Of a stretch of DNA of 64,000 nt, positions 29,401 to 60,846 are shown piece after piece. The DNA is from a virus. The stretch is taken from IMG/VR virus record IMGVR_UViG_3300042558_003926, positions 62,001 to 126,000 of that record; one strand, given 5' to 3'. How positions within the stretch are numbered: position 1 is the first letter of the stretch; each line of letters starts with the position of its first letter. The position numbers were made by a program, and so were the translations under genes. Under the pieces are notes generated by a model. The model worked only from the letters and a program-made list of their open reading frames with translations. It made no database searches and was not told the DNA's origin.

Positions 29401-30028
29401 CTCTGAATTTTGTATAGATATAAACCATCCTTATCTTGTATCTATAGGAGAAAGTTATTCTTTTGTTAATTACGGAGATCTAGCTAAGCCCTACGCTGCT
29501 AATACTAAGGTGTATCCACCCTTTAGACACACACAAACATTCTGGGGTGATACCACATTAGATTACTACTGGGCTCAGCAATCATACAGAGTACCTTCAG
29601 CATTTGCTACAGGAGCTACTGCTTCAAGAGATGATAGAATGTATGCAGATAAGCTAGGATTTACCTCAAATGACGAATATTTGATAGGTAAATTCTCCTG
29701 CGGGGCATATTTGTATTTAGGTCCAACCACATCTTCTTCTGTTCAAGTAGATGGCAGTACATCCTTATCTACGAGAGCTCTTGCAGACGGTGAAACTAAT
29801 GCCATAAATATACCTCTAATTTTCCAATTTAGAGCGGTTGATAAAGCGGGTTTCATTGGAGGATGGAGAAAATCGGGTACACTATCCAATATTACTTATA
29901 CTAAAAAACTAGGTATTGATATACAGGTTAAAAACGAGGACATATTCTCATTTGATGTTCAAATAAGCGGATCATATAAGAATGATACCCTCGTTGCTCC
30001 TAATTTCGATAGTGGAACTACTAGTTAA
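26420..30028 (+). CDS. Large virion protein (1202 aa), fibre or baseplate type
   Basis: The family is not recognised. The N-terminus is helical (residues 1-50, leucine-rich), followed by beta-rich domains. There is a predicted coiled coil with an Ala/Gln-rich face near 425-465 (KSEISALDAAINDAQAQLNI), a Ser/Thr-rich linker, a fibronectin-like region near 530-670, and a second helical segment near 745-770 (LFDKMQEMQNQILLLTAQLN). The C-terminal third is Tyr/Gly/Ser-rich. Two (S/T)GATAS motifs occur near residues 970 and 1065. The layout suggests an elongated multimeric tail component. It lies 17 bases after the previous gene and 18 before the next. Confidence 0.5.
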   Translation: MAGTQNSISSLLAQFLRLQKNSLEIMNGLTEATVSTNETVSIEVLDEQGLPKNANVPSYGYLKSQIDRLDNNVKALAGIGETSATVRNPDGTYSQVFKSATLKEPPRITNLTVPSTFSVKDNWFFESFLNPLLYINVNVTGQVQDLADRIVVKRIIANTETDEQKQYFDLQLKGRNDLSYDQFISLLGDNGIGYFVDEDIIPLPLRTIRYIGGFSVLGYYDDTLTTTDQFGNQVQQLRRNYKLDKLTYTDTVSGVPDGKTLDIRDVITTEDGSRYQVTSVDSNQSSIQVKRVSGYQPIQIGANVLTISSPDFGARNVQVNVGFNERQGVFFKGIDDNFNIVSAIWSTGIIFWSNELRTKNSNGEVLTLENYYLNEVSDFGKIFLGAAKEKPIPAIQGLTPDAPLVTANSFKVVQINKQLTQSVSAQTVESKLNAKSSLKSEISALDAAINDAQAQLNIGLSQTTTTSNTSGSTTNKSIAASVTTSPPGVNSDSVKANLNNLVNERTKKVQLYSSLVEEVSTLTKDVPQVVTAPKYRVRGFWPMPAAKEDPNTGSQSVIQFSVRYRYLSDSGSAQPSDQIEFVDNDGQKKSASFSNWTEYKTDIRKKVYNTNKGIYVWADEITSDSDVQNINQLDIPITKGERLEIQIASISEAGWPSNSLASGYSESVIISFPDDLSVNGISDTVVKNNQDVAVVEVQKSLDAQGLPIHLSQQFTENGKTYVHDSTSIASGFYNSSGLVVSLFDKMQEMQNQILLLTAQLNNAKGVLEVYVVDSTNNKIKVSKGSLVKINAGYYSDIFTNPLTTDAGKISSFTYNVQLYNAQASLVELASLIPGGLAVKAPSTVSPNTYPVGYDDNLRYGDCPISITSLTLSDSSIEDNTYFRQAPPFASSSAYSQYVYPRFKSVGYDQDLYNGGTTNSSSFTAIYDTNYAYDGSISGTINFGISGTYPQNGTIMIPYDPTATPGIVSGATASNIWIGTFSGTTGGTPNGGGPISEFCIDINHPYLVSIGESYSFVNYGDLAKPYAANTKVYPPFRHTQTFWGDTTLDYYWAQQSYRVPSAFATGATASRDDRMYADKLGFTSNDEYLIGKFSCGAYLYLGPTTSSSVQVDGSTSLSTRALADGETNAINIPLIFQFRAVDKAGFIGGWRKSGTLSNITYTKKLGIDIQVKNEDIFSFDVQISGSYKNDTLVAPNFDSGTTS

Positions 30029-30046
30029 TAAACTAAAAAATGATTT

Positions 30047-43916: not shown

Positions 43917-43919
43917 GAT

Positions 43920-44468
43920 ATGTTATTAAATCCGAAACAAAATAGTTTTTTCTTTCAGTTTCCCAAAGGATTCTTTCCGGAAATCATAGTTGAGAAGTAC
44001 TTACCTTATCTTAAAAAACAACCGATTCCGTACGACAGCCTTTCTCAGTATGTTAATAGCACTATTCAGACTATAAGCTTTCCTAGTTTACAATTGGATT
44101 CTGTAGAGCAGGTTAGACCGCTAGGTAAAAAGATCACTTATAAAGGATCTACACCGATACAGGATCTATTTAGTAAGGATCTTACGGTTCAGTTTAGATT
44201 AGTGGATGGCTTCATCAATTATTTTATATTACTAGATACGATTCTGTGGTATGTTAATTTTGCACAAGAGCAAGTTTTTATCCAGAATTTACCTTTAAGA
44301 ATTATGGATAGTGAGGGAAATATAGTTGTATCCGCTACTTTTCAACAAGCTATAATATCATCATTCTCGGAACTTCAATTTGCTTATACCGCTAATGCAG
44401 CTCAGGATGCTAATTTTACCATGGGATTTAAGTTCAACTACTTAGATGTAAAATTAGAAGCTAAGTAA
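43920..44468 (+). CDS. Tail-tube or tube-initiator-like protein (gp19/gp54 type)
   Basis: This 182-residue protein is close in size to T4 gp19 (163 residues). The C-terminal half shows the tube-fold pattern: DLTVQFRLVDGFINYFILLD, a Trp-containing helix, then LPLRIMDSEGNIVVSATFQ and a final pair of strands ending FTMGFKFNYLDV. The N-terminal half (INSTIQTISFPSLQLDSV region) fits the tube sandwich. It could be the tail tube, the tube initiator or a baseplate tube-like cap. It is the last gene of the structural block; a GATATATA motif follows immediately. Confidence 0.5.
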   Translation: MLLNPKQNSFFFQFPKGFFPEIIVEKYLPYLKKQPIPYDSLSQYVNSTIQTISFPSLQLDSVEQVRPLGKKITYKGSTPIQDLFSKDLTVQFRLVDGFINYFILLDTILWYVNFAQEQVFIQNLPLRIMDSEGNIVVSATFQQAIISSFSELQFAYTANAAQDANFTMGFKFNYLDVKLEAK

Positions 44469-44476
44469 GATATATA
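44469..44476 (+). promoter_or_regulatory. Putative late promoter motif GATATATA
   Basis: GATATATA begins right after the tube-like stop codon and ends 18 bases before the start at 44495, the standard spacing of this motif. Confidence 0.55.
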
Positions 44477-44494
44477 GATCAAATAAGGAAAGAA

Positions 44495-44734
44495 ATGAAA
44501 AAGTATTCAGAATTACAGGAACTAAACGAGATGAAATACGGTCAGCCACTTTTCACAGAAAAGGATCGTATGAAAAATCTATTGGTAGCAGCATCAGGGA
44601 ATGACCAAAGAGTTTTAAATGATCTAGTTAACTGTTTAACTGACGAGCAGATGAAGAAGTGCTACGATAAGCTTTCCCAAGTATATGGTTATACTGGAAG
44701 CACTGGTCAAAAAATAGTTCCACCTAGTCTATAA
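44495..44734 (+). CDS. Small protein of unknown function
   Basis: This 79-residue charged, mostly helical protein has two Cys residues (about 47 and 56) and a short Gly/Thr tail. It has no membrane segment. It is the first gene after a GATATATA motif and stops 5 bases before the RuvC-like gene, so the two are probably co-transcribed. T4 has small late-transcription and replication factors near gene 32, but I see no sequence basis to name it. Confidence 0.5.
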   Translation: MKKYSELQELNEMKYGQPLFTEKDRMKNLLVAASGNDQRVLNDLVNCLTDEQMKKCYDKLSQVYGYTGSTGQKIVPPSL

Positions 44735-44739
44735 TTTTA

Positions 44740-45450
44740 ATGAATTTAGTCGGAATAGATTTTTCGATCAACTCGCCAGCTTTCTGTTGTCTTAAAGATG
44801 GTGTATACACATGGGGTTCTGTGACCAGATCCGAGCGATCCAAAGAATCCCTAATCAAGAACACAAAGAAGCCATATTACTGGTTAGACTGTGACCCAAA
44901 TTTTACTCTGGATTTTATAGAGAAACAAGATTTACCTGAAGACTATAGCGGAAGAGAAAGAATGAAGATAGGGTACTTTTTAAGCATCGTAGATGGACTT
45001 TGGGACAGCATTAAGGGTATAATGGGTAATTCAGATTTTAGTGTGGCTATGGAGGGTTTAAGCTTCTCTTCGAACGGAAACGCACTAATAGATATTTCGA
45101 TGGCAACATCTTTGCTAAGAGAAAGAATAATCAGAGAGGTTGGTGTGGATTCGTTTTACGTTTTCTCTCCAACCAGTATAAAAAAGTTTGCATTAAAGGG
45201 CAATGCTAAAAAAGATGAGCTTTACGAAGCTCTATGTAATTTTAAAGAGGACGAAACAAATTTAGAGGTATTTACTAGAATGTTAGCAACCAACAAGGAA
45301 GAATGGGTAACTAAAGCCAAACAGGTCAATAAACCCATTGATGATATTGTTGATGCAACTTGGATTAATTTGTATTTAAAAAAGGAATTAGAGGGAATTT
45401 ATGAAATTAAGAGAAAATTGGAAACCGAAAAAGCTTCTCCTACGATCTGA
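44740..45450 (+). CDS. RuvC-like Holliday-junction nuclease
   Basis: This 236-residue protein has the RuvC/RNase-H-fold catalytic set: Asp7 in GIDFSINSP, Glu105 in VAMEGLSF, and the C-terminal acidic pair in PIDDIVDATWI (Asp201/202 and Asp205). Between them lies the FSPTSIKKFALKG strand-helix (about 142-154), where RuvC proteins carry a P-x-x-V/I-K-x-x-x-x-G motif. RuvC-type enzymes cut four-way junctions. T4 itself uses endonuclease VII (gp49), which has a different fold, so this would be a replacement. Its place next to gp32, UvsY and UvsW fits recombination-dependent replication and DNA packaging. Confidence 0.75.
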   Translation: MNLVGIDFSINSPAFCCLKDGVYTWGSVTRSERSKESLIKNTKKPYYWLDCDPNFTLDFIEKQDLPEDYSGRERMKIGYFLSIVDGLWDSIKGIMGNSDFSVAMEGLSFSSNGNALIDISMATSLLRERIIREVGVDSFYVFSPTSIKKFALKGNAKKDELYEALCNFKEDETNLEVFTRMLATNKEEWVTKAKQVNKPIDDIVDATWINLYLKKELEGIYEIKRKLETEKASPTI

Positions 45451-49935: not shown

Positions 49936-49943
49936 GATATATA
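49936..49943 (+). promoter_or_regulatory. Putative late promoter motif GATATATA
   Basis: GATATATA lies 18 bases before the start at 49962. It separates the recombination cluster from the first gene with a capsid-targeting-like N-terminus. Confidence 0.55.
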
Positions 49944-49961: not shown

Positions 49962-50507
49962 ATGAAAATTAAGAAATTTGATTCCTTTGTATCCGAAAGT
50001 TTAAATGAAGACTCGTCACATTACGAGGGCAAAAACAAATTTAGCAAATGGCTAAGGGGAGTAAATGATAGGATTAAGTCCGAAGTGGACGATTCCAAAT
50101 TTTATTCTAGATATACAGACCCAAATACTGATAAATTTGTAGCTGCAAACAAGGCCACGGCTTTAATACCCGGAGCTTTTAGATTAATCATAGGAGCAGG
50201 TGCTGCTATATCAGACTTCTTTACAAAAGGGGATAATAAGGACACAGTATCAAAATACTCCAAAGAAGATCTTAGTAATAAAAAGGAAGAGATCATAAAT
50301 AAATGGGAGCAGGACAATATTAAATCAGATACAACAGAAGCTGACGCAGAAAAATTTTATAAATCTGGTGTTATCAAGGGTAAAAAATTCTTTGGACCCG
50401 ATTATGACCCGGTAAAACCCAAAAACAAGGACGAAGAAATCTACACTGATTATATAGATGGTGTGATGGAAAGATATTACAAAAGAACATCCAAATATGC
50501 CAAATAA
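49962..50507 (+). CDS. Putative internal capsid protein with targeting peptide
   Basis: This 181-residue basic protein begins MKIKKFDSFVSES. This resembles the capsid-targeting peptide of T4 internal proteins (MKTYQEFIAEA) and has a V-S-E site at residues 10-12 that could be cut by the prohead protease. The rest is charged and helical, with an Ala/Ile-rich segment (ALIPGAFRLIIGAGAAISDF, about 67-86) that may be membrane-active. No enzymatic motif is seen. A late-promoter-like GATATATA precedes it. The packaged-protein role is inferred. Confidence 0.5.
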   Translation: MKIKKFDSFVSESLNEDSSHYEGKNKFSKWLRGVNDRIKSEVDDSKFYSRYTDPNTDKFVAANKATALIPGAFRLIIGAGAAISDFFTKGDNKDTVSKYSKEDLSNKKEEIINKWEQDNIKSDTTEADAEKFYKSGVIKGKKFFGPDYDPVKPKNKDEEIYTDYIDGVMERYYKRTSKYAK

Positions 50508-51426
50508 ACTGATGGATTTCTCAGGATTCTCCAGAGTGTTTGAAGGCGGAGCAGCTATAAAATCATCTAGGAGTATTAGAGAGGACGAGTTTCCTAAAAC
50601 ACTGGATAGCATAAAATCTATTTTATTTCCCATCCTAGGTATAAATCCAACCAAGGAGGGATCTCAATATCTTGTAATCGGTAGTATTGGGAAAAAGAAA
50701 AATCCGGAGGATACATCAGGAGATCTTGATATAGGATATGACAGCAGCTGGTTTTCTAGAGAACATGGGATCACTGCTAAGGAGTGTTCATCTGAGGTTT
50801 ATAAATTGGTCTCTCAGGATCTTCCTGAAAAATTAGGATTCGACCCGGAAATAAATCATATGAAGGGATTAAGCATAGTTAGTTTAGGCTGGCCAATCCA
50901 GGGTGATTTTAGTAAAGGGATAGTTCAGTTAGATTTAATCCCTGTATCCAGCATGGATTGGGCTAAATTTATTTATTATTCACCTAATTATAAAATAGCG
51001 GAGAGCAAATATAAATCGGCTCATAGAAATTGGTTATTGACAGCAATACTAGCATCAAGAAGAAGAATAATTAAGGTAGACCCGGATGGACAGGTATTGG
51101 ATTATGATTCTCCTGTTCTAATGCTCAGCGATGGTTTATTCTGGCACACAAAGTCATATGCAGGAAAAATTAAGTCCAGGTTAAAGAACCCTAAAAAAAT
51201 AGAGGGAAGCGAGAGATTTGTTACCAGGAATCCACAAGAATTTATAGATTTTACACTGGGGCCAGGGTATACTCCGGAGGAGGTAAAAACATTCGAGCAA
51301 GTATTTTCTATAATTAGCGATCCTTCTTTTGAATTATATGGTAATCTGGAGGAGATTAAGGATAAATTTAAGGAATATCTAGAAAGAACCGGTTTAGAGG
51401 TTCCGTCCGAAATAAATAGAATTTAA
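50497..51426 (+). CDS. Pol-beta-type nucleotidyltransferase
   Basis: This 309-residue protein has the nucleotidyltransferase signature: Gly62-Ser63 in VIGSIGKKK, the metal pair Asp76/Asp78 in SGDLDIGYD, and a third Asp146 in GIVQLDLIPV. Enzymes of this fold add nucleotides to RNA, DNA, proteins or small molecules. The N-terminus (LMDFSGFSRVFEGG) resembles the targeting peptides of neighbouring genes, with V-F-E at 14-16. The chosen ATG overlaps the previous stop by 11 bases; an in-frame ATG at 50512 is an alternative. The next gene is a nucleic-acid-ligase fusion, which suggests a joint role in RNA or nucleotide metabolism. The substrate is unknown. Confidence 0.7.
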   Translation: MPNKLMDFSGFSRVFEGGAAIKSSRSIREDEFPKTLDSIKSILFPILGINPTKEGSQYLVIGSIGKKKNPEDTSGDLDIGYDSSWFSREHGITAKECSSEVYKLVSQDLPEKLGFDPEINHMKGLSIVSLGWPIQGDFSKGIVQLDLIPVSSMDWAKFIYYSPNYKIAESKYKSAHRNWLLTAILASRRRIIKVDPDGQVLDYDSPVLMLSDGLFWHTKSYAGKIKSRLKNPKKIEGSERFVTRNPQEFIDFTLGPGYTPEEVKTFEQVFSIISDPSFELYGNLEEIKDKFKEYLERTGLEVPSEINRI

Positions 51427-51459
51427 TAGATATAATATACATTACTAAAAGAAGAAGAT

Positions 51460-53466
51460 ATGTCAGGAATAAGTCATCTATACGACATCTATAATAAGAA
51501 GGGGAAGGATTTTGTAGAAAAGCTTTTCAATTCTTATGTGACCGTTAATGAAAAAATGGACGGGTCAGCATTTGTGTTCGAGAGAGACGTAGAGACTGGC
51601 AAATTTATTTTTTATAAAAGAGATCAAAGAAATCCTATTACTATGGTGGATAGGACTTTAATGAAGTACTACGAAAAACCTATATTGTATATAGAAGCTC
51701 TACCTGCACATATTATTAAGGAAATTCCTAGAGGATGGAGATTTGGCTTGGAATACTTTTCAAATTCCAGTCCGGTAGAGATTGCTTACGATAGAGTTCC
51801 GAAGAATAATCTGATACTCTCCTATGTTAAGCCTAAAGGTGATTCGGACGCTGAGCAGATTACCGATAAAGAAAATCTTGATATGTGGGCTGATTTGATA
51901 GGAGTCGAAAGACCCCCTATAATTTTTCAGGGTATTCTATCTAAGGAGCAGAAAGATAAGATTCTAGATTTCCTTAGAACTCCATTTGATGAGCTTGTTA
52001 ATGAATATAAAACCAAGAGTTTTGTTAGGTTCATACTTAGTGTTCTTAATCCAGAGATAGAGAGCAGCGCACTAAACGACGATCTAGATAAGCCGATAGA
52101 GGGAATAGTATTTAGATTTAGCTCCGATGCAGATAAGGATAATGGAGGCGAGATTCTACTTTCTAAAATGGTGGATCCGGTATTTACAGAGATGGCCAAA
52201 TCTAAATCTAGTAAAAAATCAGAACAAAAACCTAGTGATTTTCTAGGAATCACAATCCTAGATGTGATGAATTTCATTCTGGACAAGGGAATAGAAAGCT
52301 TTAGAGTTAATGGAGATTCAGAGGATGAAAGATACATCTCCTTCATATCAGATGTTTTTTCTAAATTCTTAGAAGAATATGGATACAAATATAAAGGATC
52401 AGACTTTCAAGAGCCAGACTATCTAAAGAAAGATGAATTTAGGTTAAACCGTGATATGATCCGGGATCCTAGAGTTATGAAATGGATCGAAGAGGATGAT
52501 TCTTACGAATCGCTATTTAAGCTCATTTTGAATTCATTCAGGAAGATTAAGAAAAGGGCCGGCGGAATTATAACTCCCGGTATAATCGACCAATTTAATA
52601 TGCTGGTTTCTGATATAGATGGTGTTGTCAGAAAAAAGAAATTAGTTAAGGCTAATGAATCTGATATACCTTCATTCTTAGACTTTAAAAAGAATAATCT
52701 ATCGGCTGGAAATCTCGATCACCTAACTCTAGAAGGTGATGAAGCTGATGAAAATTTCGATGACCACTTTTATTCTTACAATGACTTCATCACTGCTTTA
52801 GAAACTATTGATTCTGTAGATAAGCCTAAAGTTGAAACCAAGCCGATAGACGATGAATCATTTAAGAGTGATCAGAAAGTTAAAAAGGGAGATTTACAGA
52901 AAGTAAATCTTATAGTTGGTAGATTCCAGCCTTTCCACAACGGACACATGAAAATGGTGGATGTTCTGATGGATAAGAACGGACTTCCATCGATAGTGGC
53001 AGTGGTTCATCCCGGGCATAACAAATCTGGTAATTCTCCATTCGATTCAACATTGGTTTCCAAGTATATGGAAAGCTTAATAAATGAAGCACCTCAAAAA
53101 ATACAGGGATATTTTATTGTCAATAGAGGACTTTTGGGTCCAATATGCAGTCGTGCTAAAGAACTTGGATATCTTCCAGTTTCCATTGGAAGCGGAGAGG
53201 ATAGATCGGAGGATTACAATAAACAATTTGACTTCCTAAAGAAATTAGGATCAGACTTCCCTGAATCTATAGAATTAGTAGAAACCCCAAGAAAAAATAG
53301 CGGGAGTGAAATAAGAGGATACTTAGATAACGAGGACTTTTTAGCATTTAAGAAATCAGTTCCTCAGTCAGTATCTTCTTTCTATCAGCAAATGGTTTCT
53401 TCTAAGAAAGGAAGAGGTATTTCAGAGAGCTTGGAAGTGGAAGACCTAGAAAAGAAAAATAAATAA
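51460..53466 (+). CDS. Nucleic-acid ligase fused to NMNAT-like adenylyltransferase
   Basis: This 668-residue protein joins two nucleotidyl-transfer domains. Residues ~1-250 have the covalent ligase motifs: EKMDGSAF with nucleophile Lys32, RFGLEYF with Glu98 (motif III), EGIVFRF at 214-220 (motif IV) and LLSKMVD with Lys236 (motif V). Residues ~480-645 form an HxGH-type domain: GRFQPFHNGH at 487-496 and SGSEIRG at 614-620, as in NMN adenylyltransferases and NadR. The middle is helical and unassigned. The ligase part resembles Rnl2-type RNA ligases more than DNA ligases. A degenerate GATATAAT (51429-51436) precedes it. Confidence 0.75.
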   Translation: MSGISHLYDIYNKKGKDFVEKLFNSYVTVNEKMDGSAFVFERDVETGKFIFYKRDQRNPITMVDRTLMKYYEKPILYIEALPAHIIKEIPRGWRFGLEYFSNSSPVEIAYDRVPKNNLILSYVKPKGDSDAEQITDKENLDMWADLIGVERPPIIFQGILSKEQKDKILDFLRTPFDELVNEYKTKSFVRFILSVLNPEIESSALNDDLDKPIEGIVFRFSSDADKDNGGEILLSKMVDPVFTEMAKSKSSKKSEQKPSDFLGITILDVMNFILDKGIESFRVNGDSEDERYISFISDVFSKFLEEYGYKYKGSDFQEPDYLKKDEFRLNRDMIRDPRVMKWIEEDDSYESLFKLILNSFRKIKKRAGGIITPGIIDQFNMLVSDIDGVVRKKKLVKANESDIPSFLDFKKNNLSAGNLDHLTLEGDEADENFDDHFYSYNDFITALETIDSVDKPKVETKPIDDESFKSDQKVKKGDLQKVNLIVGRFQPFHNGHMKMVDVLMDKNGLPSIVAVVHPGHNKSGNSPFDSTLVSKYMESLINEAPQKIQGYFIVNRGLLGPICSRAKELGYLPVSIGSGEDRSEDYNKQFDFLKKLGSDFPESIELVETPRKNSGSEIRGYLDNEDFLAFKKSVPQSVSSFYQQMVSSKKGRGISESLEVEDLEKKNK

Positions 53467-53472
53467 ACAGAA

Positions 53473-54015
53473 ATGAATAAATTCGTAACCAAATTTAGCG
53501 ATTTTAGTTTTCATATGAACGAGAGCGACGGATTCGGTACTTCTCCATTCTTAATGAAAAAGGAATCCGATATCTACCATTATTTCTTTAATCTAGATAA
53601 AGAAAGCGGAGAGACAGACGCATACCATTTAATTATCGGTAAGTATTCTGATCGTGAAGTAATCGAAGGGCCTAAAAATTCTTATTGCGTTCTAACGATA
53701 AATGAGATATCACCAGAAATCCTGGAAGACATTGCAGCTGATAAGGAAGATATTCCTAAGATGAATTCACAGAAATTTAAAATGGGATCTGGCGAACTAT
53801 CAAGATTGATGAAGTATGTTTACAAGTGTGTAAATGATTATCTCCAGATTAATCCAAAAGTTATTAGAATATATGATGAGGTTCAGGATAACTTAGTCTA
53901 TGACGGAAAGGGCTCATACCTAGAATATATGAAATCGATATCTCTTTCTGAACTTGGTACCAATTGGGCAGTACAAGAGGGATCGTCAAAAATGACCTTA
54001 ATTATCAGCAGATAA
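53473..54015 (+). CDS. Unknown protein with targeting-like N-terminus
   Basis: This 180-residue acidic protein begins MNKFVTKFSDFSFHMNESDG. The FSDF-x-F element and the M-N-E site are a weaker match to the capsid-targeting pattern seen in neighbouring genes. The body is alpha/beta with a conserved-looking GKYSDREVIEGPKNSYCVLT segment near 56-75. It starts 6 bases after the ligase fusion stop, so it is co-transcribed with it. No enzyme motif is seen. Confidence 0.5.
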   Translation: MNKFVTKFSDFSFHMNESDGFGTSPFLMKKESDIYHYFFNLDKESGETDAYHLIIGKYSDREVIEGPKNSYCVLTINEISPEILEDIAADKEDIPKMNSQKFKMGSGELSRLMKYVYKCVNDYLQINPKVIRIYDEVQDNLVYDGKGSYLEYMKSISLSELGTNWAVQEGSSKMTLIISR

Positions 54016-54024
54016 GAAACTTTT

Positions 54025-54032
54025 TATAAATA
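54025..54032 (+). promoter_or_regulatory. TATAAATA, exact T4 late-promoter consensus
   Basis: TATAAATA lies 34 bases before the histone-like gene start at 54067, in a 51-base gap. With the gp32 copy it is one of two exact matches to the T4 late consensus in the window. Confidence 0.5.
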
Positions 54033-54066
54033 CATAGGTATAATTACAAATTAAAAATAAAACAAA

Positions 54067-54243
54067 ATGGAAAAATTCGAACAGATTAAAGCTCTAATCG
54101 AGCAAACACAAGGAGACGTTGAGAAATTCTCAGCTAAAGGAAATTCAACTGCAGGAACTAGAGTAAGAAAAGCTATGCAGGAGTTAAAAAACTTAGCTCA
54201 AGAATTAAGAGTTGAAATCCAGGAGGCAAAAAATAAAGCTTAA
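54067..54243 (+). CDS. Histone H1 (Hc1)-like DNA-binding protein
   Basis: This 58-residue protein runs from MEKFEQIKALIEQTQ to a Lys/Ala-rich end, and contains KGNSTAGTRVRKAMQELKNL at residues 24-43. That block (K-G-N-x-x-A-G-T-R-x-R-K-x-x-x-x-L-K) is the core of the small histone H1-like (Hc1) proteins of Bacteroidetes and Chlamydiae. Such proteins bind and compact DNA. Either it condenses phage DNA, or it mimics and displaces host nucleoid protein. It is a strong pointer to a Bacteroidetes host. A TATAAATA motif lies 34 bases upstream. Confidence 0.8.
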   Translation: MEKFEQIKALIEQTQGDVEKFSAKGNSTAGTRVRKAMQELKNLAQELRVEIQEAKNKA

Positions 54244-54261
54244 TCACTAAAAAATTATCAA

Positions 54262-54498
54262 ATGAGCTATTGGGTAGTTAAAACCAAATTCGAATCTGGA
54301 GAGGTAAAAAAGAATGGGGATCCAGTTTATAAAAAAGCAGAATTTCTAGTTGCGGGTGACTCTGTCATCGAAGTAGAAAAGAAAGTTGCAGAGTATATGG
54401 ACGGCACCATCGGAGGCTACGAATCTTTCCAGGTTACAAAAACCAAAATCGAAGCCGTTATATACGACAAAAACAAATATGAAGAACAACTCCTCTAA
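54262..54498 (+). CDS. DUF4494-like small protein
   Basis: This 78-residue protein begins MSYWVVKTKFESGE, followed by KKAEFLVAGDSVIEVEKKVAEY. The W-x-x-K-x-x-x, L-V-x-A-x-S-x-x-E-A/V-E layout matches the small DUF4494 family, common in Bacteroidetes and their phages; function unknown. It follows the histone-like gene by 18 bases and its 3' end overlaps the next gene by 20 bases in another frame. Confidence 0.6.
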   Translation: MSYWVVKTKFESGEVKKNGDPVYKKAEFLVAGDSVIEVEKKVAEYMDGTIGGYESFQVTKTKIEAVIYDKNKYEEQLL

Positions 54499-54730
54499 AT
54501 CCGCTGAAACCAGTTTCTATGCTCCACCACAATCTCCAATTGCAATACAGCCCGGTGATACCGGATTCAAAACTGTAGGTAAGGGATATAATAGATTTAT
54601 CTGGACATTTGCGGACTGGCAGAAGGGGAAGAAGAAGATTATAGATCCTGATACCAATTGGGATCTGGCTTCAAAACCAATCACCCAGAAAGAATGGGAC
54701 AAAAAACAAAAAGACCTATATTTAAAATAG
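54479..54730 (+). CDS. Small unknown protein before a terminator
   Basis: This 83-residue protein begins MKNNSSKSAETSFYAPPQSP and has a Trp/Tyr-containing core (YNRFIWTFADWQKGKKKI). The ATG at 54479 is preferred over the upstream in-frame ATG at 54386, which would place 31 more codons inside the DUF4494-like gene. The stop codon is inside the terminator hairpin. Function unknown. Confidence 0.55.
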   Translation: MKNNSSKSAETSFYAPPQSPIAIQPGDTGFKTVGKGYNRFIWTFADWQKGKKKIIDPDTNWDLASKPITQKEWDKKQKDLYLK

Positions 54731-54741
54731 GTCTTTTTTTT
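54711..54741 (+). terminator. Rho-independent terminator
   Basis: AAGACCTAT (54711-54719) pairs with ATAGGTCTT (54727-54735) around a 7-base loop, then a run of T to 54741. It overlaps the end of the preceding gene and directly precedes a GATATATA promoter motif. Confidence 0.88.
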
Positions 54742-54749
54742 GATATATA
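54742..54749 (+). promoter_or_regulatory. Putative late promoter motif GATATATA
   Basis: GATATATA immediately follows the T-run of a terminator and lies 15 bases before the GTG start at 54765. A terminator then a promoter is good evidence for a new transcription unit. Confidence 0.6.
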
Positions 54750-54764
54750 GAATAAAGAAATTCT

Positions 54765-55535
54765 GTGGTTAAAATATTATCATTTAGCGAATATTTATTT
54801 GAAAGCTCGTCTCAGACGAGCAATGATTTAATTAATAGTTTTAAAAATGCCATAAAAACTACTCAGGCAGAAGAATCACCACGAGGGAGTAATAAAGGTC
54901 CTAAAGTCGAACCTTTACTGAAAGGAGTTGGTGCTGCCCCAGGTGCACCCTGGTGTGTAGCTTTTGTTCATGGTGTTCTAAATAAAACCAAATTTAGCCA
55001 GGATATTAAAAGCCAGATACCTAAAGATGCGGCGGTTAAATACCACTGGGAAAGAACCAAGGCTAAAAAAATCACATATAAACCAGGGATGGATCCTAAA
55101 AACATTCTGCCTGGTATGGTTTTTTGTTATCTAAGTAAGGATAAAAAAACTGGTACATATCCGGGACACGGTCACACTGGAATAGTTTTAAGTGTGGATA
55201 AGGAGAAAAGAGAATGGACTGGAATAGAAGGTAATACTAATCCACTTGATGGCGGTAGAGAGGGATATGGAACTTTTATAGTTACCAGAAAAATTGATGA
55301 TCCCAGTATATCCAAGGACAAAAAGGATCACCCATCTAAACCACTCGGATTTATTGATTATTTTTCCTCTCATAGAAAAAATCCGGAGTTTACTAAAACA
55401 TTCTCAGAAAACCTAAAGAGATTAAGAGACGATCTTCGACCAAAAACAAATAAAGAGATAGCTTATCTTAAGGCTAATCCAGGAGTATTAAAGGATTACG
55501 AGAATAACTATAATAACAGAAATAAAAGCAAATAA
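54765..55535 (+). CDS. CHAP/NlpC-type peptidoglycan hydrolase with targeting peptide
   Basis: This 256-residue protein carries a papain-like cell-wall hydrolase domain: Cys64 in APWCVAFVHG, His135/His137 in PGHGHTGIVLSV and a polar residue in GIEGNTNP (Glu155/Asn157), the Cys-His-polar triad of CHAP amidases/endopeptidases. The N-terminus MVKILSFSEYLFESS matches the capsid-targeting pattern with an L-F-E cleavage site at 11-13. There is no secretion signal or membrane helix. A GTG start at 54765 is chosen because it includes this peptide. Either it is the lysis endolysin or a packaged enzyme. No wall-binding domain is obvious; the C-terminus is basic. Confidence 0.75.
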   Translation: MVKILSFSEYLFESSSQTSNDLINSFKNAIKTTQAEESPRGSNKGPKVEPLLKGVGAAPGAPWCVAFVHGVLNKTKFSQDIKSQIPKDAAVKYHWERTKAKKITYKPGMDPKNILPGMVFCYLSKDKKTGTYPGHGHTGIVLSVDKEKREWTGIEGNTNPLDGGREGYGTFIVTRKIDDPSISKDKKDHPSKPLGFIDYFSSHRKNPEFTKTFSENLKRLRDDLRPKTNKEIAYLKANPGVLKDYENNYNNRNKSK

Positions 55536-55536
55536 A

Positions 55537-55905
55537 ATGCCAGCAAGAAGCACAGCACAGCAGAGATTAATGGGTCAGGCATACGCTATAAAAATAGGAG
55601 CAATGGAACCTGAAGATTTAAATCCTAGATACCGAGCAGAGATTTTAAAGATTGCTAAAGGTATGACTAAAGATGAGCTTAAAAAATACGCTGAAACTAG
55701 ACAAAAAGGGCTTCCCCACTATGTTGACGAGTCGGAAATGAGTACATCATTGGAACCTATTCCATCTGACACCATGCCCAAATTTAATCCACATGGCCCG
55801 GGAAAAATAGTTCCATTCCTAGATCCCGATGCTAAACAAAAGAAGAAGGGGAGGGGTAACCTACAAAACCTTAAGGATTATAGAGATTGGATCAATCAGA
55901 AATAA
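55537..55905 (+). CDS. DUF3008-like small basic protein
   Basis: This 122-residue basic protein begins MPARSTAQQRLMGQAYAIK, close to the P-A-x-S-x-x-Q-Q-R-x-M-G start of the DUF3008 family found in T4-like phages and cyanophages. Residues 20-60 are a charged helix with MTKDELKKYAETRQKGLP. The C-terminus is Lys/Gly-rich. It starts one base after the CHAP gene stop, so they are co-transcribed. Function unknown; DNA or capsid binding would fit its charge. Confidence 0.6.
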   Translation: MPARSTAQQRLMGQAYAIKIGAMEPEDLNPRYRAEILKIAKGMTKDELKKYAETRQKGLPHYVDESEMSTSLEPIPSDTMPKFNPHGPGKIVPFLDPDAKQKKKGRGNLQNLKDYRDWINQK

Positions 55906-55908
55906 TTC

Positions 55909-56496
55909 ATGTCTAGATTTCCCTCAAATCCAAAGATAGGGCAGGCCTTCCTTCCAAATCAGACTAATTTATATGTTTGGGGTGGACATCAATGGGTTCC
56001 AGGAACGGGAGTTTATGGATCTTTCTATGATATCCAGGACCAAACAGCCTCGGCTAGTACCGCAACCCCTATGATATTCAGGACTACTGATTTTTCTTAT
56101 GGTGTTTCTATTAAAGCTGACACTAGCGGGAATTTAACAAGAATATCTCCAGAGCACCCAGGAAGATATAATATTCAATTTTCTGCACAATTAGATAGGG
56201 TATCCGGATCTGGATTGGTCCAGGTTGACATATGGCTTAGAAAAAATGATGTTGATGTTCCATGGACAGGTACTAAAGTAACTCTTTCCGGTAATTCTAA
56301 TGCTTCCAAAATTGTTGCTGCTTGGAATTTCTTCGCCCAAACCCAATATGATTCGGACTACTTCCAGCTGATGTGGAGAACGACAGATGTCAACATACAT
56401 ATAATCTCGGAACCTGCAAACTCTGCACAACCCAATCCCGCAGCGTATCCTGGTATTCCTTCGATCATTCTCACCGTAAATCAAGTAGGATTCTAA
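55909..56496 (+). CDS. Jelly-roll (C1q-like) virion decoration or fibre-tip protein
   Basis: This 195-residue protein starts MSRFPSNPKIGQAFLP with a YVWGGHQWVPG turn. The body has the pattern of small phage jelly-roll proteins: YGSFYDIQDQ, then GRYNIQFSAQLDRVSGSG, VDIWLRKNDVDVPWT, AAWNFF and YFQLMW (residues ~36-165), ending in PSIILTVNQVGF. Similar domains occur in T4-like phage virion proteins and in C1q/TNF-like folds. It probably forms trimers on the capsid or fibres. Confidence 0.6.
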   Translation: MSRFPSNPKIGQAFLPNQTNLYVWGGHQWVPGTGVYGSFYDIQDQTASASTATPMIFRTTDFSYGVSIKADTSGNLTRISPEHPGRYNIQFSAQLDRVSGSGLVQVDIWLRKNDVDVPWTGTKVTLSGNSNASKIVAAWNFFAQTQYDSDYFQLMWRTTDVNIHIISEPANSAQPNPAAYPGIPSIILTVNQVGF

Positions 56497-56509
56497 GAAT
56501 ATATAGATT

Positions 56510-56923
56510 GTGAAACACGTTGTAAACTTTGAGGAATACGATCCAGCTGACGAGTATAAATTAGATTCTCGTAGATCGATTAATTTGGATAGAATAAGAA
56601 AATCCAGAGAATATAAAAGGATCATAGATCTTGGTTTTGAAGAGGAGACATCACATCAGCAGGATCTAAATAACACCATGAAGTTTATTAGAACCGAGAA
56701 CAAGCAAAGAGAGAAAGGACATGGTGATGTTTTTTATACAATACACCCGACCGGAACAGTTAGAAGATATAACCCTATAAGATCTAAAGAGACACCAGAG
56801 GGAAGCGGAAATGATATCAAGAAATTCATCGAACCGTTTAAGAGCATAGCAGATTACAAAAAAGGTTTGAACTATCTCTGGCAATATCTTAAGAGAAAAG
56901 AAGATAGAGGAGATTATAGATAA
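56510..56923 (+). CDS. Unknown basic protein with weak targeting-like N-terminus
   Basis: This 137-residue Lys/Arg-rich protein starts with GTG; the first residues MKHVVNFEEYDPADEY loosely resemble the targeting peptides nearby but lack the hydrophobic-x-E site. The core has several charged helices. An AT-rich GAATATATAG (56497-56506) sits only a few bases before the GTG, too close for a promoter with this start. Function unknown. Confidence 0.5.
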   Translation: MKHVVNFEEYDPADEYKLDSRRSINLDRIRKSREYKRIIDLGFEEETSHQQDLNNTMKFIRTENKQREKGHGDVFYTIHPTGTVRRYNPIRSKETPEGSGNDIKKFIEPFKSIADYKKGLNYLWQYLKRKEDRGDYR

Positions 56924-56928
56924 TAAAT

Positions 56929-57159
56929 ATGTGTGATTGTGGAGGATATAGCGTTACTGAACCTCTAAATCCCAGAAGGGGAGCAAAGGAGGTTAGCCAA
57001 ATAGACAACAAGTGGATTCTGGATAATCTAAACAGGAAACTTTTGGTTCAAGGTCCCATCTACGATATATACAATGATATTATAGGTTACATAACAAAGA
57101 ATGAGGATGGTAACACGGTTAGAATCTTCACCCATAATATCAAACAAATATTAGATTAA
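56929..57159 (+). CDS. Small unknown protein
   Basis: This 76-residue protein starts MCDCGGYSV, so two Cys lie at residues 2 and 4. A likely compact alpha/beta fold follows (KWILDNLNRKLLVQGPIYDI, then IIGYITKNEDG). It begins 5 bases after the previous gene and stops 4 bases before the next. No family is recognised. Confidence 0.5.
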   Translation: MCDCGGYSVTEPLNPRRGAKEVSQIDNKWILDNLNRKLLVQGPIYDIYNDIIGYITKNEDGNTVRIFTHNIKQILD

Positions 57160-57163
57160 ACTT

Positions 57164-57634
57164 ATGTTTTATCCAACAGGAAATACAACCAAAGGAAGAT
57201 GCCTAGTCTGCATGGAGGACGAGAAACCAGAAATTGCAGAAGCACTAAACGAGTGCAACGAATCTTGCGTGACCGAGTGCATGGGAAAATGGTTAGAAGA
57301 GAAAAACTACTGCGTTGAAAAATGGCAGCTTAAGGAGTATCTTAAAGAAATGGGATGCAACGAGGATAAGATCATGGAGGATATGGGTGCTGCTCCAGCT
57401 CCTACCGCTGCTCCAGCCCCAGGACTTGCAACATTAGGTAATGTCCCAGGTATGGGTAATCCAACTCCTCCTTCCAATGATGGAACTAATGCTGGTTTTT
57501 ATGATTCAAGCAAAACAGGAAGCGGTGATAAATTTACCACATTAACTGCAGGGACTGCAGCTGCTAAGAAGAAAGGCAAAAAGGGTAAGAATCTTATATC
57601 TTATATGGATTTTATAAGGAATAGAAAAAAATAA
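57164..57634 (+). CDS. Cysteine-rich protein with Ala/Pro linker
   Basis: This 156-residue protein has seven Cys in its first 65 residues (13, 16, 31, 35, 39, 50, 65), including CLVC and C-x3-C-x3-C, suggesting a metal-binding helical domain. An Ala/Pro/Gly linker (residues ~76-105) and a Lys-rich C-terminus (KKKGKKGKN near 137-145) follow, ending ISYMDFIRNRKK. No known family. A terminator follows the gene. Confidence 0.55.
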   Translation: MFYPTGNTTKGRCLVCMEDEKPEIAEALNECNESCVTECMGKWLEEKNYCVEKWQLKEYLKEMGCNEDKIMEDMGAAPAPTAAPAPGLATLGNVPGMGNPTPPSNDGTNAGFYDSSKTGSGDKFTTLTAGTAAAKKKGKKGKNLISYMDFIRNRKK

Positions 57635-57678
57635 ATCAGGGTGTCATTTTGACAATTCAATTTATAAAAAACACGGGG

Positions 57679-57705
57679 AAAGAAGACATTTAGTCTTCTT
57701 TTTTT
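57679..57705 (+). terminator. Rho-independent terminator
   Basis: AAGAAGAC (57680-57687) pairs with GTCTTCTT (57693-57700) around ATTTA, followed by five T. It ends the 54.7-57.6 kb transcription unit before hsp20. Confidence 0.88.
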
Positions 57706-57750
57706 GTGTGGAACTGTTTTTGTACTAAGATGAATAAAAAATAAAAAATC

Positions 57751-58131
57751 ATGAACACAAAAGAATTTAGAAACATGTTTCCAACAATTTTATCATCTAC
57801 ACTAAACGATTCCATTTTAGATAGCATCATATCTTTAAAATCTGGGGTATCTAAGAACTCATACAAGACGGAGGTAATAGATGGAAACCTTAGAATAGAA
57901 TTTCCTTTGCCTGGTTTATCTAAGGATGACATCTCGGTTTCTTTTGAAAGCGGTAAGCTTATCCTAGAGGTCAAGAAATCAGGGAATTGGTCGCTGGAGG
58001 GTAAGAGCACCTATTTGGTGTCGGAGTCATTCGACCCGGAAGGAGCTTCAGCGGAAATGAAGAATGGTGTTCTTGAGGTAAAAATTCCGGAAAGATCTAA
58101 AACTGGATCAAAAAAGATAACGATCATCTAA
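57751..58131 (+). CDS. Small heat-shock protein Hsp20
   Basis: This 126-residue chaperone has the alpha-crystallin domain: RIEFPLPGLSKDDISVSFES near 45-64, then a loop, SESFDPEGASAEMKNGVLEV (A-x-x-x-N-G-V-L-x-V-x-I-P motif) and KIPERSKTGSKKITI at the end. Small Hsp20 proteins hold unfolding proteins and are known in T4-like cyanophages. It is preceded by a terminator and has its own upstream region (57706-57750). A role in virion assembly or in stabilising phage proteins is plausible. Confidence 0.88.
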   Translation: MNTKEFRNMFPTILSSTLNDSILDSIISLKSGVSKNSYKTEVIDGNLRIEFPLPGLSKDDISVSFESGKLILEVKKSGNWSLEGKSTYLVSESFDPEGASAEMKNGVLEVKIPERSKTGSKKITII

Positions 58132-58165
58132 TTTATTAAATTCCGAAATTTTTTAGTTTTTCCGT

Positions 58166-58173
58166 GATATATA
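58166..58173 (+). promoter_or_regulatory. Putative late promoter motif GATATATA
   Basis: GATATATA (followed by AATG) ends 35 bases before the start at 58209, in the gap after hsp20. Confidence 0.55.
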
Positions 58174-58208
58174 AATGACAATTTTAAAACTAAAATAAAA
58201 TAATTATC

Positions 58209-59498
58209 ATGGCAAGACCAGTATTAAATTTCGCAGATTTCTTGATCGAGTCTGCAAGAATGATCAACGAGGGATATAGCTTTTCTGAAGCTATGGAATC
58301 ACTAAACGCATTTACCCAAACTAAGGGAATGAGTCTTTCAAGCGGAAACCAGAAAACTTATGTGAAGGAAGCTCTAGCAAATATTGAATTAATGGCTAAA
58401 CAAAACTCGGTAAGTCCTGAGACTGTAGTTACTGCTTTAGGTGATGCTTTGGGATCAATAATTTCAGATTCTATTGAAACTAAGAATCTAAAACTTTATT
58501 TAGACAATTGTGGAGTAGTTTCCAATAAATTAAAAATTACAGGGGTAACGGCAGGATCTGTAAAATGTGATGCTATACCATCAACTTCAGTGGAAGCTGC
58601 TAAGAAAAATGGAAACAAGGTACTTTTAACTGATCTTCTAACATCAATTAATTTAGCTAATGCAGAGGCAAGAAAATCTAAGACTTATGCTAAACAGAAA
58701 AAAGCTGGTAAACCTTTCGAACTTAACGTAGATAAGGAAGGTAATCTGATTGATGGAAGTTATGACAAACAGATATTTATAACTAATACATCTGGGTCTA
58801 CAAAATTCGAATGGAAGCTAAATACATTCTCTAATCCAGTAACACCGGCACAGGATGATTTTTCTTACGGGTCTGATTCTGTTGAACTGAACACCGCCGA
58901 TAATGGAATAGCTAATGATGTTGGATATGTAAATCTTGTACTCTATTCAGTAGAGAGTATTGCTGATGGTAAAACATCCTATAATGTTACTGACGTTGTG
59001 CCTGTAACAATTCCAACTAAAGCACCAGATAGCGAGAAGAAAATTGAGATCACAGACTATAACGGTGCATATTTTTCTCAGGGTAAATATGAATTAACCG
59101 AAACTGGTAAAAAAGCAATCTATGCTGCTATCCAGCAAAACTTTACCTCAATCAAAGAAGTAACGATAAATGGTTATGCTTCTAAAGAGGGAACAGTAGA
59201 GGTTAACACGCAACTATGTAAAGATAGAGCAGCCGAAGCAGCAAAATTCATTAAAACTTTATCTAAGGATGCAACAGTTACTGCTTCGGAAACTGCAAAT
59301 ATCCAGCCAGCTGATAACACGGACAAAAAGGAAGCTTGGAGAAAAATATCATTAGATATAAAAGGTACATCCGTAATTCCGGGTGATGTTAAAGATGTCA
59401 TAAAATTCATAAGTCAGGACGATACGATTTATTCAGAAGATTATACTCTTCGTCAGACGATATTCCAGTTTGCTATTGAGATAGACACTGAAGGTTAA
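58209..59498 (+). CDS. OmpA-domain protein with capsid-targeting-like N-terminus
   Basis: This 429-residue protein begins MARPVLNFADFLIES, the clearest match in the window to the T4 capsid-targeting peptide, with a possible prohead-protease site L-I-E at 12-14. There is no secretion signal. Residues 20-270 are mixed helix and beta-sandwich. Residues ~283-388 form an OmpA-like domain: AYFSQGKYELTETGKKAI, NGYASKEGTVEVNTQL (319-336), DRAAEAAKFI and WRKISLDI. OmpA domains bind peptidoglycan. A domain for the cell wall on a cytoplasmically made, possibly packaged protein is unusual. A terminator follows at 59517. Confidence 0.75.
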   Translation: MARPVLNFADFLIESARMINEGYSFSEAMESLNAFTQTKGMSLSSGNQKTYVKEALANIELMAKQNSVSPETVVTALGDALGSIISDSIETKNLKLYLDNCGVVSNKLKITGVTAGSVKCDAIPSTSVEAAKKNGNKVLLTDLLTSINLANAEARKSKTYAKQKKAGKPFELNVDKEGNLIDGSYDKQIFITNTSGSTKFEWKLNTFSNPVTPAQDDFSYGSDSVELNTADNGIANDVGYVNLVLYSVESIADGKTSYNVTDVVPVTIPTKAPDSEKKIEITDYNGAYFSQGKYELTETGKKAIYAAIQQNFTSIKEVTINGYASKEGTVEVNTQLCKDRAAEAAKFIKTLSKDATVTASETANIQPADNTDKKEAWRKISLDIKGTSVIPGDVKDVIKFISQDDTIYSEDYTLRQTIFQFAIEIDTEG

Positions 59499-59516
59499 AA
59501 TAATAAAACCCACAAA

Positions 59517-59547
59517 AAAGGGAATCCTTAAAGATTCCCTTTTTTTT
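59517..59547. terminator. Bidirectional rho-independent terminator
   Basis: AAAGGGAATC (59517-59526) pairs with GATTCCCTTT (59533-59542) around a 6-base loop, flanked by an A-run and a T-run. It lies between two convergent genes and can serve both strands. Confidence 0.88.
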
Positions 59548-59561
59548 GTGAGAGATTGTTT

Positions 59562-60005
59562 TTATTCGATGGTGATTACAACGTAGTATGTTTCCCCGAT
59601 TTTAACCTGTTCTACCCAGAAATTTTTAGGAGTTCCGTATAATTCGAAGTAGTTCCCAAATTCGGGTCTTTGAATTGTTTTAATGGCACTTCCTGAGAAA
59701 AAGCTTGCTTCCAAGGAATTAACCAAATCGAAATCTCCATAAAGACGGCTGTTGATGTGGCCTTGTCCTTTAATGAATTCCTGACCCTTTGCGTAATTGA
59801 TGGCTCCTTCTTTTAGAGATGGATCTAATGTGAAATTAGTTCCGTAGTGGTTTTCCAAAGCAATCTCTACCGAGTCTTGGATCTGTTTCATTTTGTCAGC
59901 TGGTTTATTATTACCTGTACCGTTACCTGCAAAAGCAGTGCTGAAGAAAAAAGTAAGAGCGATTACCAATCCTGTTACTTTGCTGAAGATGTTTTTTGTT
60001 TTCAT
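59562..60005 (-). CDS. Small secreted protein
   Basis: This 147-residue protein has a typical signal peptide: MKTKNIFSK, a hydrophobic core VTGLVIALTFFFSTAF and an A-x-A-like cleavage site near FAG (about residue 26). The mature part is acidic and compact with GQGHINSRLYGDFDLVNS and a C-terminal beta-hairpin (YYVVITIE). It reads like a periplasmic or secreted accessory protein of Flavobacteria. It faces the other genes and has its own host-type promoter, so it is probably a separately acquired gene. No enzymatic motif is seen. Confidence 0.7.
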   Translation of the reverse strand: MKTKNIFSKVTGLVIALTFFFSTAFAGNGTGNNKPADKMKQIQDSVEIALENHYGTNFTLDPSLKEGAINYAKGQEFIKGQGHINSRLYGDFDLVNSLEASFFSGSAIKTIQRPEFGNYFELYGTPKNFWVEQVKIGETYYVVITIE

Positions 60006-60036
60006 AATTTCTATTTTTTTTAATTGATTTACATTT

Positions 60037-60044
60037 CAAATATA
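60037..60044 (-). promoter_or_regulatory. Bacteroidetes-type promoter element TATATTTG
   Basis: On the reverse strand TATATTTG fits the Bacteroidetes sigma -7 box TAnnTTTG, 31 bases upstream of the secreted-protein ATG. The -33 TTTG box is only partly matched by a T-rich stretch about 20 bases further upstream. Confidence 0.5.
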
Positions 60045-60155
60045 GAACACTAATACGAGGGAAAAAAGAAAAACTGTAATTTTTTTTAAAAAAATCCTCT
60101 ATACGTGCGTGCGCTTTTATTTTTAATATACGCATCGGTTTATTATCTTTATAAT

Positions 60156-60554
60156 ATGGAAATTAAACGAAGAGAGATCCTTATACAGGAAGAGTACATT
60201 AGCTCCCCGTGGAAAATGCTTGTTTGTTGCATTCTTCTAAATCAAACTAGCAATAAGCAAGTTAGACCGATTTTAAGCTCCGTATTTGAACTTATTCCAA
60301 ATCCCATATCTGCATCTGGGGTTGATCTTAAAGTCTTAGCAGAGGTCATAAAAACAACCGGATTTCAGAACATTAAAGCATCCAGAATAAAGAATCTCAG
60401 CCAAAAATGGAATGCTGGTTTTTCCGACGTATCAGAGCTCCCGGGAATAGGAAGATATGGGAAAGATTCATGGGAGATATTCGTAAATGGGAGAAGAGAC
60501 ATTTCTCCTACAGACAAGAAGCTTATTAAATATCTAGAAGATACTACTTTTTAG
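60156..60554 (+). CDS. MBD4-like mismatch DNA glycosylase
   Basis: This 132-residue HhH-GPD-fold protein resembles the glycosylase domain of mammalian MBD4: SPWKMLVCCILLNQTSNKQ (residues 17-35) matches the MBD4 segment DPWKLLIATIFLNRTSGK, and ELPGIGRYGKDSWEIF (94-109) with SPTDKKLIKYL (117-127) matches its HhH and catalytic Asp region; the Asp is residue 120. MBD4-type enzymes remove T or U from mismatches with G. The ATG at 60156 is preferred over 60105, which would add 17 hydrophobic residues. It lies next to the dUTPase/RNR genes and meets the next gene tail-to-tail with an 11-base overlap. Confidence 0.75.
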   Translation: MEIKRREILIQEEYISSPWKMLVCCILLNQTSNKQVRPILSSVFELIPNPISASGVDLKVLAEVIKTTGFQNIKASRIKNLSQKWNAGFSDVSELPGIGRYGKDSWEIFVNGRRDISPTDKKLIKYLEDTTF

Positions 60555-60846
60555 GTTTTGCCTTTTCTCTGAAGGAACCCTTGATGTAATCTGTTACCTC
60601 TGACCCAGATCTTGTCTTTTCTTTTAGAAACTTGTTGAAAGCTTCGGATTTCCCCTCTTTATCCAGAAACATATTTACCTCCGCTGCTTCATACATTGCA
60701 TCAATAACTTCTGGCATTTGCGGATTTGCTGATGTGTAGTTTCTGGAATTTACCTTCACTTCACTGGCCTGACCTGGAACATCAACGCTTCCGGGTGAAT
60801 CTATCCACTCAAATAGGAAATTGTCGAAATTTTTTAAATTTTTCAT
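60544..60846 (-). CDS. Small protein with targeting-like N-terminus
   Basis: This 100-residue charged protein begins MKNLKNFDNFLFEWIDSPG, again with F-D-N-F-L-F-E and a possible L-F-E cleavage at 11-13. The body is helical and acidic/basic, with a Lys-rich end. It is the only reverse-strand member of the set. An AT-rich GAATATATA lies just upstream on its strand (60854-60862) but is very close to the start. Function unknown. Confidence 0.55.
   Translation of the reverse strand: MKNLKNFDNFLFEWIDSPGSVDVPGQASEVKVNSRNYTSANPQMPEVIDAMYEAAEVNMFLDKEGKSEAFNKFLKEKTRSGSEVTDYIKGSFREKAKPKK

Follow-up and report, generated by a model that had tools for sequence, protein, structure and literature searches.

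A probable T4-type capsid-targeting leader on about one in six proteins of a phage genome and on proteins of its huge-phage relatives

Introduction

The 64,000-nucleotide stretch analyzed here (the window) covers positions 62001-126000 of the 289,651-base virus record IMGVR_UViG_3300042558_003926 (G000; record coordinate = window coordinate + 62000), and several of its proteins, otherwise unrelated, begin with a similar short peptide. Over the whole record this leader is carried by 68 of 364 genes, and it is very probably a capsid-targeting peptide of the T4 type, which would dock on the core of the assembling head and be cut off by a gp21-type protease, the cargo being ejected with the DNA. 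The initial annotation of the window had proposed a T4-type capsid-targeting peptide from six N-termini; at the level of sequence the proposal is supported by the encoded protease, the site in the capsid protein, the conservation of the leader in orthologs, its nature as an add-on and a shared upstream box. The T4 targeting signal has been known since the 1990s. The internal proteins of T4 are directed into the head by a ten-residue leader, MKTYQEFIAE/A (the slash marks the cut, here and below), in which, according to suppressor genetics, targeting depends mainly on residues 4 and 7 and processing on residues 8 and 10 (PMC9026906).

Leader motif and its enrichment

The leader consists of two parts, an aromatic pair (F/Y-x-x-F/Y) and then a hydrophobic-x-E (h-x-E) site located before a small residue. 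The record was handled as unjoined stretches, and 364 open reading frames (ORFs) were retained over its whole length by a simple codon-usage filter. The 68 genes of the curated list (tagged genes), about one in six proteins, are spread over the whole record. When their first 22 residues were removed they fell into 55 families at E < 1e-3, with no detectable similarity beyond the leader. The largest family has ten members, leucine-rich-repeat-like; several of these paralogs are in tandem (record 225923, 234424-239281, 273173-274696 and 278283), and they follow the pattern MKNLKTYxxFES...ELTPEQIEWLDK.

Studies on the enrichment of the motif were carried out with fixed rules and controls. The strict rule, [FY]..[FY][LIVMF].E within the first 20 residues, is matched by 18 of the 364 genes; in 1000 shuffles of residues 2-20 the matches averaged 1.1 and never exceeded 6, and internal 20-residue segments gave 1-3. 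The loose rule, h..[FY]..[FYM], is matched by 66 genes, where shuffling gave 16.6 on average and 29 at most. The pattern [ILV]..[FY]..[FY] is present in the first 20 residues of 54/364 genes and in 5-9 of the later 20-residue segments, and [LMIV][FY]E followed by S/N/A/D/G/H/T in 32 genes versus 2-4 in later segments. A position-specific matrix, trained on two relatives only and with some orthologs among its training members, matched 63 genes at a score of at least 6 (5.7 expected from internal segments), 52 at a score of at least 8 (2.7 expected) and 39 at a score of at least 10 (0.5 expected). Motif discovery by expectation-maximisation was discarded as overfitted, shuffled sequences likewise giving high motif fractions, and the fixed rules, their controls and the relative-trained profile were used instead.

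The predicted cut sites are mostly L/V/M/I-x-E after 10-20 residues. Among the 59 leaders with a located pair, 48 have the h-x-E site within 16 residues, most commonly as LFE, LNE, MFE or VNE. The core of a secretory signal peptide (at least about seven uninterrupted hydrophobic residues) was not seen in the leaders by eye, a charged or polar residue occurring every 2-3 positions.

Conservation of the leader in orthologs

In orthologs the sequence and length of the linker vary, while the aromatic pair and the h-x-E/small site stay. All 12 distinct N-termini of orthologs of the nucleotidyltransferase (window 50497) keep the aromatic pair (F-x-x-F, F-x-x-[FY] or Y) and E/GG, their leaders including FSGFSRVFE/GG, FSGFAILLE/GG, FEGFKKMFE/GG, FVEFKNVSE/GG and FNQFMRLNE/GG. 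The protein at 53473 is preceded in relatives by leaders such as FSDFSFHMNE/SDGFGT, FDQFISNLSE/SDGFGT, FNEFNSGLYE/SDGFGT and YTDFLSKNLNE/ADGFGT, and in the alignment of 13 sequences F11 and E17 are invariant amid a variable leader. A structure model of this protein has residues 1-23 disordered, followed by a folded domain; a fold search with it gave no match at E <= 0.001. Orthologs of the protein at 49962 also keep F-x-x-F and the h-x-E site (e.g. FDDFNSPLNE/SR and FESFTSKIQE/SD).

The tagged adenylate kinase aligns with adenylate kinases of the PDB only from about residue 21-24, the leader being absent from them, and the leaderless nucleotidyltransferase homolog of Lak-B5 starts MSGMAIKGSQPI, which in the alignment falls immediately after the predicted cut in GGAAIKSSRSI. 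As judged from such alignments, the leader is an extension added to proteins and absent from their untagged homologs. The initial annotation had named an equal frequency of the pattern in early enzymes as the result that would speak against packaging. The comparison favoured packaging instead: the motif was not found in the aligned neighbouring gp32, primase, UvsW-like helicase and ligase/NMNAT, the one exception being the adenylate kinase.

Distribution in other phages

A census at the DNA level was made with one fixed-length pattern and its reversed control, an earlier gapped pattern having been dropped as too strict (ATGAAA start only). The pattern exceeded its control in LR756502 (82 vs 14), LR756504 (59 vs 12), LR745206 (57 vs 11), LR756500 (49 vs 12), G003 (32 vs 1), G004 (34 vs 4) and the record itself (28 vs 3), and showed no excess in Lak-B5 (14 vs 15) or T4 (3 vs 3). 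It was low in G008 (1 vs 3) and LR756501 (17 vs 11), although the ORF census was high in both: 33/285 genes against 5-13 in internal segments for G008, and 65/298 against 7-12 for the first 235 kb of LR756501. In LR756502 the motif was present in 54/314 genes of the portion examined, against 8-16, and Lak-B5 showed little excess (18/228 vs 7-13; strict rule 1 vs 0-2). The signal reaches relatives up to the 735-kb record LR756501.

Many genes of the Sphingomonas phage PAU (JQ362498) start MKxLxxLYExKLNEA, and h[FY]E is found 34 times against 8-16 in this phage. The PAU leader is a lineage-specific form in a cultured phage, and its carriers include the annotated internal capsid proteins gp142 and gp154.

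In T4 itself the strict rule retrieved IPII, IPIII and gp61.1 only among 282 ORFs, with little or no excess under the loose rule. The gp61.1 gene (NC_000866, 18966-19130, minus strand) codes for a hypothetical protein of 54 amino acids that starts MKTFKEFIKE, and from this start it may be an unrecognised internal protein.

Head protease, capsid protein and phage type

By its genes the phage is of the T4 type with a T4-type head, since two portal-family genes stand side by side and the record also codes for a head maturation protease and a gp23-type capsid protein. The protease ORF (record 43277-45307) is gp21-type, with an N-terminal S77 domain (phrog_207, E 9.5e-39; S77, E 2.6e-9) and a weak match to the T4 gp21 structure 5jbl. 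The propeptide of the capsid protein ends YCHYHSLNE/SAGAY at the predicted cut, identically in all relatives printed.

The C-terminal half of the protease ORF contains 14 tandem 14-residue repeats (YSEYLAENLDxxI), e.g. KYSEYLAENLDNAI, each with Y-x-x-Y-[LIV]-A-E or a near variant. The array is kept in relatives and in LR745206, LR756501, LR756502 and LR756504 (634-735 kb), and is absent from Lak. The ORF is probably a protease-scaffold fusion, and its repeats raise the hypothesis that the cargo leaders imitate one of them. The AlphaFold model of the polyprotein, with long helices over the repeats, has a mean pLDDT of 47 and is too weak to use. A strict rule linking repeats and tag abundance is not claimed, because LR756500, with three repeats and many tags, contradicts it; Lak-B5, which lacks both, fits.

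The two portal-family proteins (record 29170-32476), both phrog_213, either form distinct portal subunits or stem from a duplication. The record further codes for a T4 gp55-like sigma factor. The baseplate and nucleotidyltransferase genes match those of huge or jumbo phages (LR7565xx records, Lak phages, Tenacibaculum and Flavobacterium phages). NrdB shares 74-77% identity with Tenacibaculum phage proteins; therefore, the host is probably a member of the Bacteroidota.

The upstream box

Of the 58 copies of the sequence GATATATA in the record, 48 lie no more than 110 nt upstream of a gene start, ahead of virion genes (portal, protease, baseplate, fibre) as well as tagged genes. In the record beyond 126 kb it lies within 60 nt upstream of 21/54 tagged genes and 6/194 other genes (p = 4e-11). 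The difference is found again when an automatic rule replaces the curated list (17/48 vs 10/200, p = 1e-7) and when intergenic gaps are matched (17/33 vs 5/99, p = 1e-8). The association is repeated in relatives, with GATATATA in G007 (p = 0.003) and G008 (p = 3e-5) and with ATATATA in LR756501 (p = 7e-6) and LR756502 (p = 1e-6). By analogy with T4 the box is taken as a putative late promoter.

Leaders and cargo

The four N-termini on which the initial annotation was mainly based are encoded at 49962 (MKIKKFDSFVSES), 54765 (MVKILSFSEYLFES, with a GTG start), 58209 (MARPVLNFADFLIES) and 60846 on the reverse strand (MKNLKNFDNFLFE), and the two weaker ones, at 50497 (MPNKLMDFSGFSRVFEGG) and 53473 (MNKFVTKFSDFSFHMNES), are real as well; a seventh leader of the window is found at 56510 (Table 1). 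The box, correctly said to precede three of the best cases, begins 26 nt upstream of 49962, 23 nt upstream of 54765 and 43 nt upstream of 58209. The counterpart in G007 of the 56510 protein starts MKHLLDFKSYSPEYEY, and the G007 ortholog of the 60846 protein starts MKNLKKFEGFINEWLDSPGS. Comparison of the N-termini over the full record, proposed as a check in that annotation, showed that it had covered a small part of a peptide that is genome-wide and kept in relatives.

Table 1. Leader-bearing proteins and upstream boxes of the window
Feature	Position	Strand	Leader (predicted cut at slash)	Remarks
79-aa protein	44495..44734	+	MKKYSELQELNE/M	doubtful leader; profile score 5.0, borderline; GATATATA box at 44469
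GATATATA box	49936..49943	+		putative late promoter element; upstream of 49962
181-aa protein	49962..50507	+	MKIKKFDSFVSE/S (49962-49997)	strict motif
309-aa nucleotidyltransferase-like protein	50497..51426	+	MPNKLMDFSGFSRVFE/GG (50497-50544)	GS...DxD motif by eye, no Pfam match
180-aa protein	53473..54015	+	MNKFVTKFSDFSFHMNE/S (53473-53523)	
GATATATA box	54742..54749	+		upstream of 54765
256-aa CHAP-domain protein	54765..55535	+	MVKILSFSEYLFE/S (54765-54803)	Pfam CHAP E 1.1e-6 from residue 60; leader kept in relatives
137-aa protein	56510..56923	+	MKHVVNFEEYDPADE	weaker leader; aromatic pair without clear cleavage site; profile score 12.0
GATATATA box	58166..58173	+		upstream of 58209
429-aa protein, C-terminal OmpA domain	58209..59498	+	MARPVLNFADFLIE/S (58209-58250)	strict motif; Pfam OmpA E 5.5e-7, residues 288-374
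100-aa protein	60544..60846	-	MKNLKNFDNFLFE/W (60846-60808)	strict motif

Most tagged proteins of the record have no recognisable domain. The domains identified in the others are adenylate kinase, RimK-type ATP-grasp, glycerophosphodiester phosphodiesterase (GDPD), phosphoribosyltransferase, nucleotidyltransferase, CHAP (two), SLT, cell-wall hydrolase (Hydrolase_2), peptidoglycan binding (PG_binding), OmpA and leucine-rich repeats. The T4 precedents Alt and IPI suggest that such cargo could act in host takeover or counter-defence.

Three other features of the window were observed. A PhoH-like ATPase, its motifs read by eye, is encoded on the reverse strand within the tail gene block (22298-23053). 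An untagged fusion of RNA-ligase-like and cytidylyltransferase/NMNAT-like domains (51460-53466) is flanked by tagged genes. The protein encoded at 57164-57634 has a C-terminus, KNLISYMDFIRNRKK, that resembles the leader motif at the opposite protein end.

Discussion

Delivery into the host by a T4-type leader would proceed in three steps. The aromatic pair would dock late-made proteins on the inner core of the assembling head, which is probably the C-terminal repeat part of the protease polyprotein, the cargo leaders perhaps imitating one repeat; the gp21-type head protease would then cut after hydrophobic-x-E; and the mature protein would stay inside the capsid, to be ejected along with the DNA. 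A wider model, which is held tentatively and with slightly less than even confidence, is that in these huge phages, some of the largest known among them, the head core is built from the leader-like repeats of the protease, so that any late protein gaining a repeat-like leader of about 12 residues would be packaged, cut free and injected, an open delivery system that would serve about 15-20% of the genes.

Several observations weigh against delivery by such leaders. The gene starts are predicted and the list of 68 genes was chosen by eye; 11 of the 59 leaders with a located pair have no clear h-x-E site within 16 residues; and the reversed control of the box, ATATATAG, is enriched too, more weakly. 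The tagged adenylate kinase is encoded beside the nrd genes and lacks the late box. Among the cargo domains, several (CHAP twice, SLT, Hydrolase_2 and PG_binding) act on peptidoglycan, and a cytoplasmic use for them is not obvious. Finally, the array of LR756500 is degenerate, with three recognisable repeats, yet this record has many tags, so that the number of tags does not follow the number of repeats exactly.

The leaders could instead be scaffold or core-binding elements of head-building proteins, destroyed or expelled in maturation, with a minority reaching the host. Several tagged genes adjoin the capsid gene and look helical and scaffold-like (record 47125, 48335, 49218), and in T4 the protease gp21 cleaves gp22, gp67 and gp68 of the core into fragments (PMC5694885). 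However, the majority of tagged genes are remote from the head genes, and many code for enzyme domains (adenylate kinase, RimK-type ATP-grasp, GDPD, phosphoribosyltransferase), which a single site right after the leader would keep intact, and this explanation is considered unlikely. It is rather less probable still that the leader carries no packaging signal and recruits late proteins elsewhere, to a membrane, an assembly site or a phage-made compartment. Short aromatic helices can bind membranes or partner proteins, and the peptidoglycan-acting domains would fit the envelope, but recruitment of this kind leaves unexplained both the h-x-E/small site, which matches the site of the capsid protein and T4 practice, and the repetition of the leader pattern inside the head protease polyprotein.

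A likeness without any signal, arising from common ancestry or from the AT-rich composition of gene starts, is favoured by the many leaders that start MK with A-rich codons and by the ten-member paralogous family. However, most of the signal is lost when residues 2-20 are shuffled (66 vs 16.6; strict rule 18 vs 1.1), there are 55 families without detectable similarity beyond the leader, and T4 and Lak-B5 show little or no excess. Likeness without a signal is thus contradicted as a full account and very improbable.

Among known systems the closest is that of T4 (IPI, IPII, IPIII and Alt, cut by gp21), with which the leaders share a length of about 10-20 residues, an aromatic pair three residues apart and a cut after hydrophobic-x-E, beside a related protease and major capsid protein; late expression is here inferred. 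T4 has about four such proteins and this record about 60-68, and the leaders of the record vary more in linker length. T4 IPI (MKTFKEFTSTTTPVSTITEA) has a long gap between pair and cut site, as in many leaders here. T4 has a separate scaffold protein, gp22, whereas the protease ORF of this record bears the long repeat array with the leader motif. In phage P1 an N-terminal signal directs DarB into the head and can carry a reporter, but this concerns a single protein and not a genome-wide set, and no Dar consensus was found by its authors (PMC9024508). The head ejection proteins of phiKZ and SPN3US are likewise numerous in a large head, and some are processed by a T4-related protease; they differ in their cleavage motif, A-x-E (S/T/A-x-E in phiKZ), in several propeptides of more than 100 residues and in having no comparable short leader (PMC5694885). 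The leaders of the record do not conform to the A/S/T-x-E motif and long propeptide of the phiKZ type, their sites being mostly L/V/M/I-x-E. In PAU, the annotated internal capsid proteins gp142 and gp154 and the scaffolding protein gp152 share short leaders (MKSLTNLYENKLNE/A, MKTISKLYEAKLNE/A), and a related protease is encoded nearby, but the consensus is another one that lacks the F-x-x-F pair, and the internal-capsid label is an annotation. For the bS21-encoding huge phages of freshwater Bacteroidetes, passages of one study raise virion packaging of a protein as a hypothesis and describe no leader peptide (PMC9723584); no bS21 gene was seen in the window.

Taken from its sequence features, the leader system would be a greatly expanded variant of the T4 capsid-targeting system. 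Its new features are its scale, its occurrence across huge phages and the reappearance of the motif as tandem repeats in the protease polyprotein; a literature search that included few subscription journals turned up no previous description of capsid-targeting leaders on a genome-wide scale in such phages. By the sequence rule, dozens of uncharacterised proteins of huge phages become predicted head cargo, most of them with a predicted new N-terminus, and the likeness between leader and repeat offers a testable docking mechanism for the targeting signal known from T4. As candidate tags, the leaders might also be used to bring proteins into phage heads of very large size. Moreover, if the reading is true, huge phages would bring a large protein kit into the cell together with their DNA, which would bear on host takeover, on resistance to defence and on the purpose of very large genomes and capsids.
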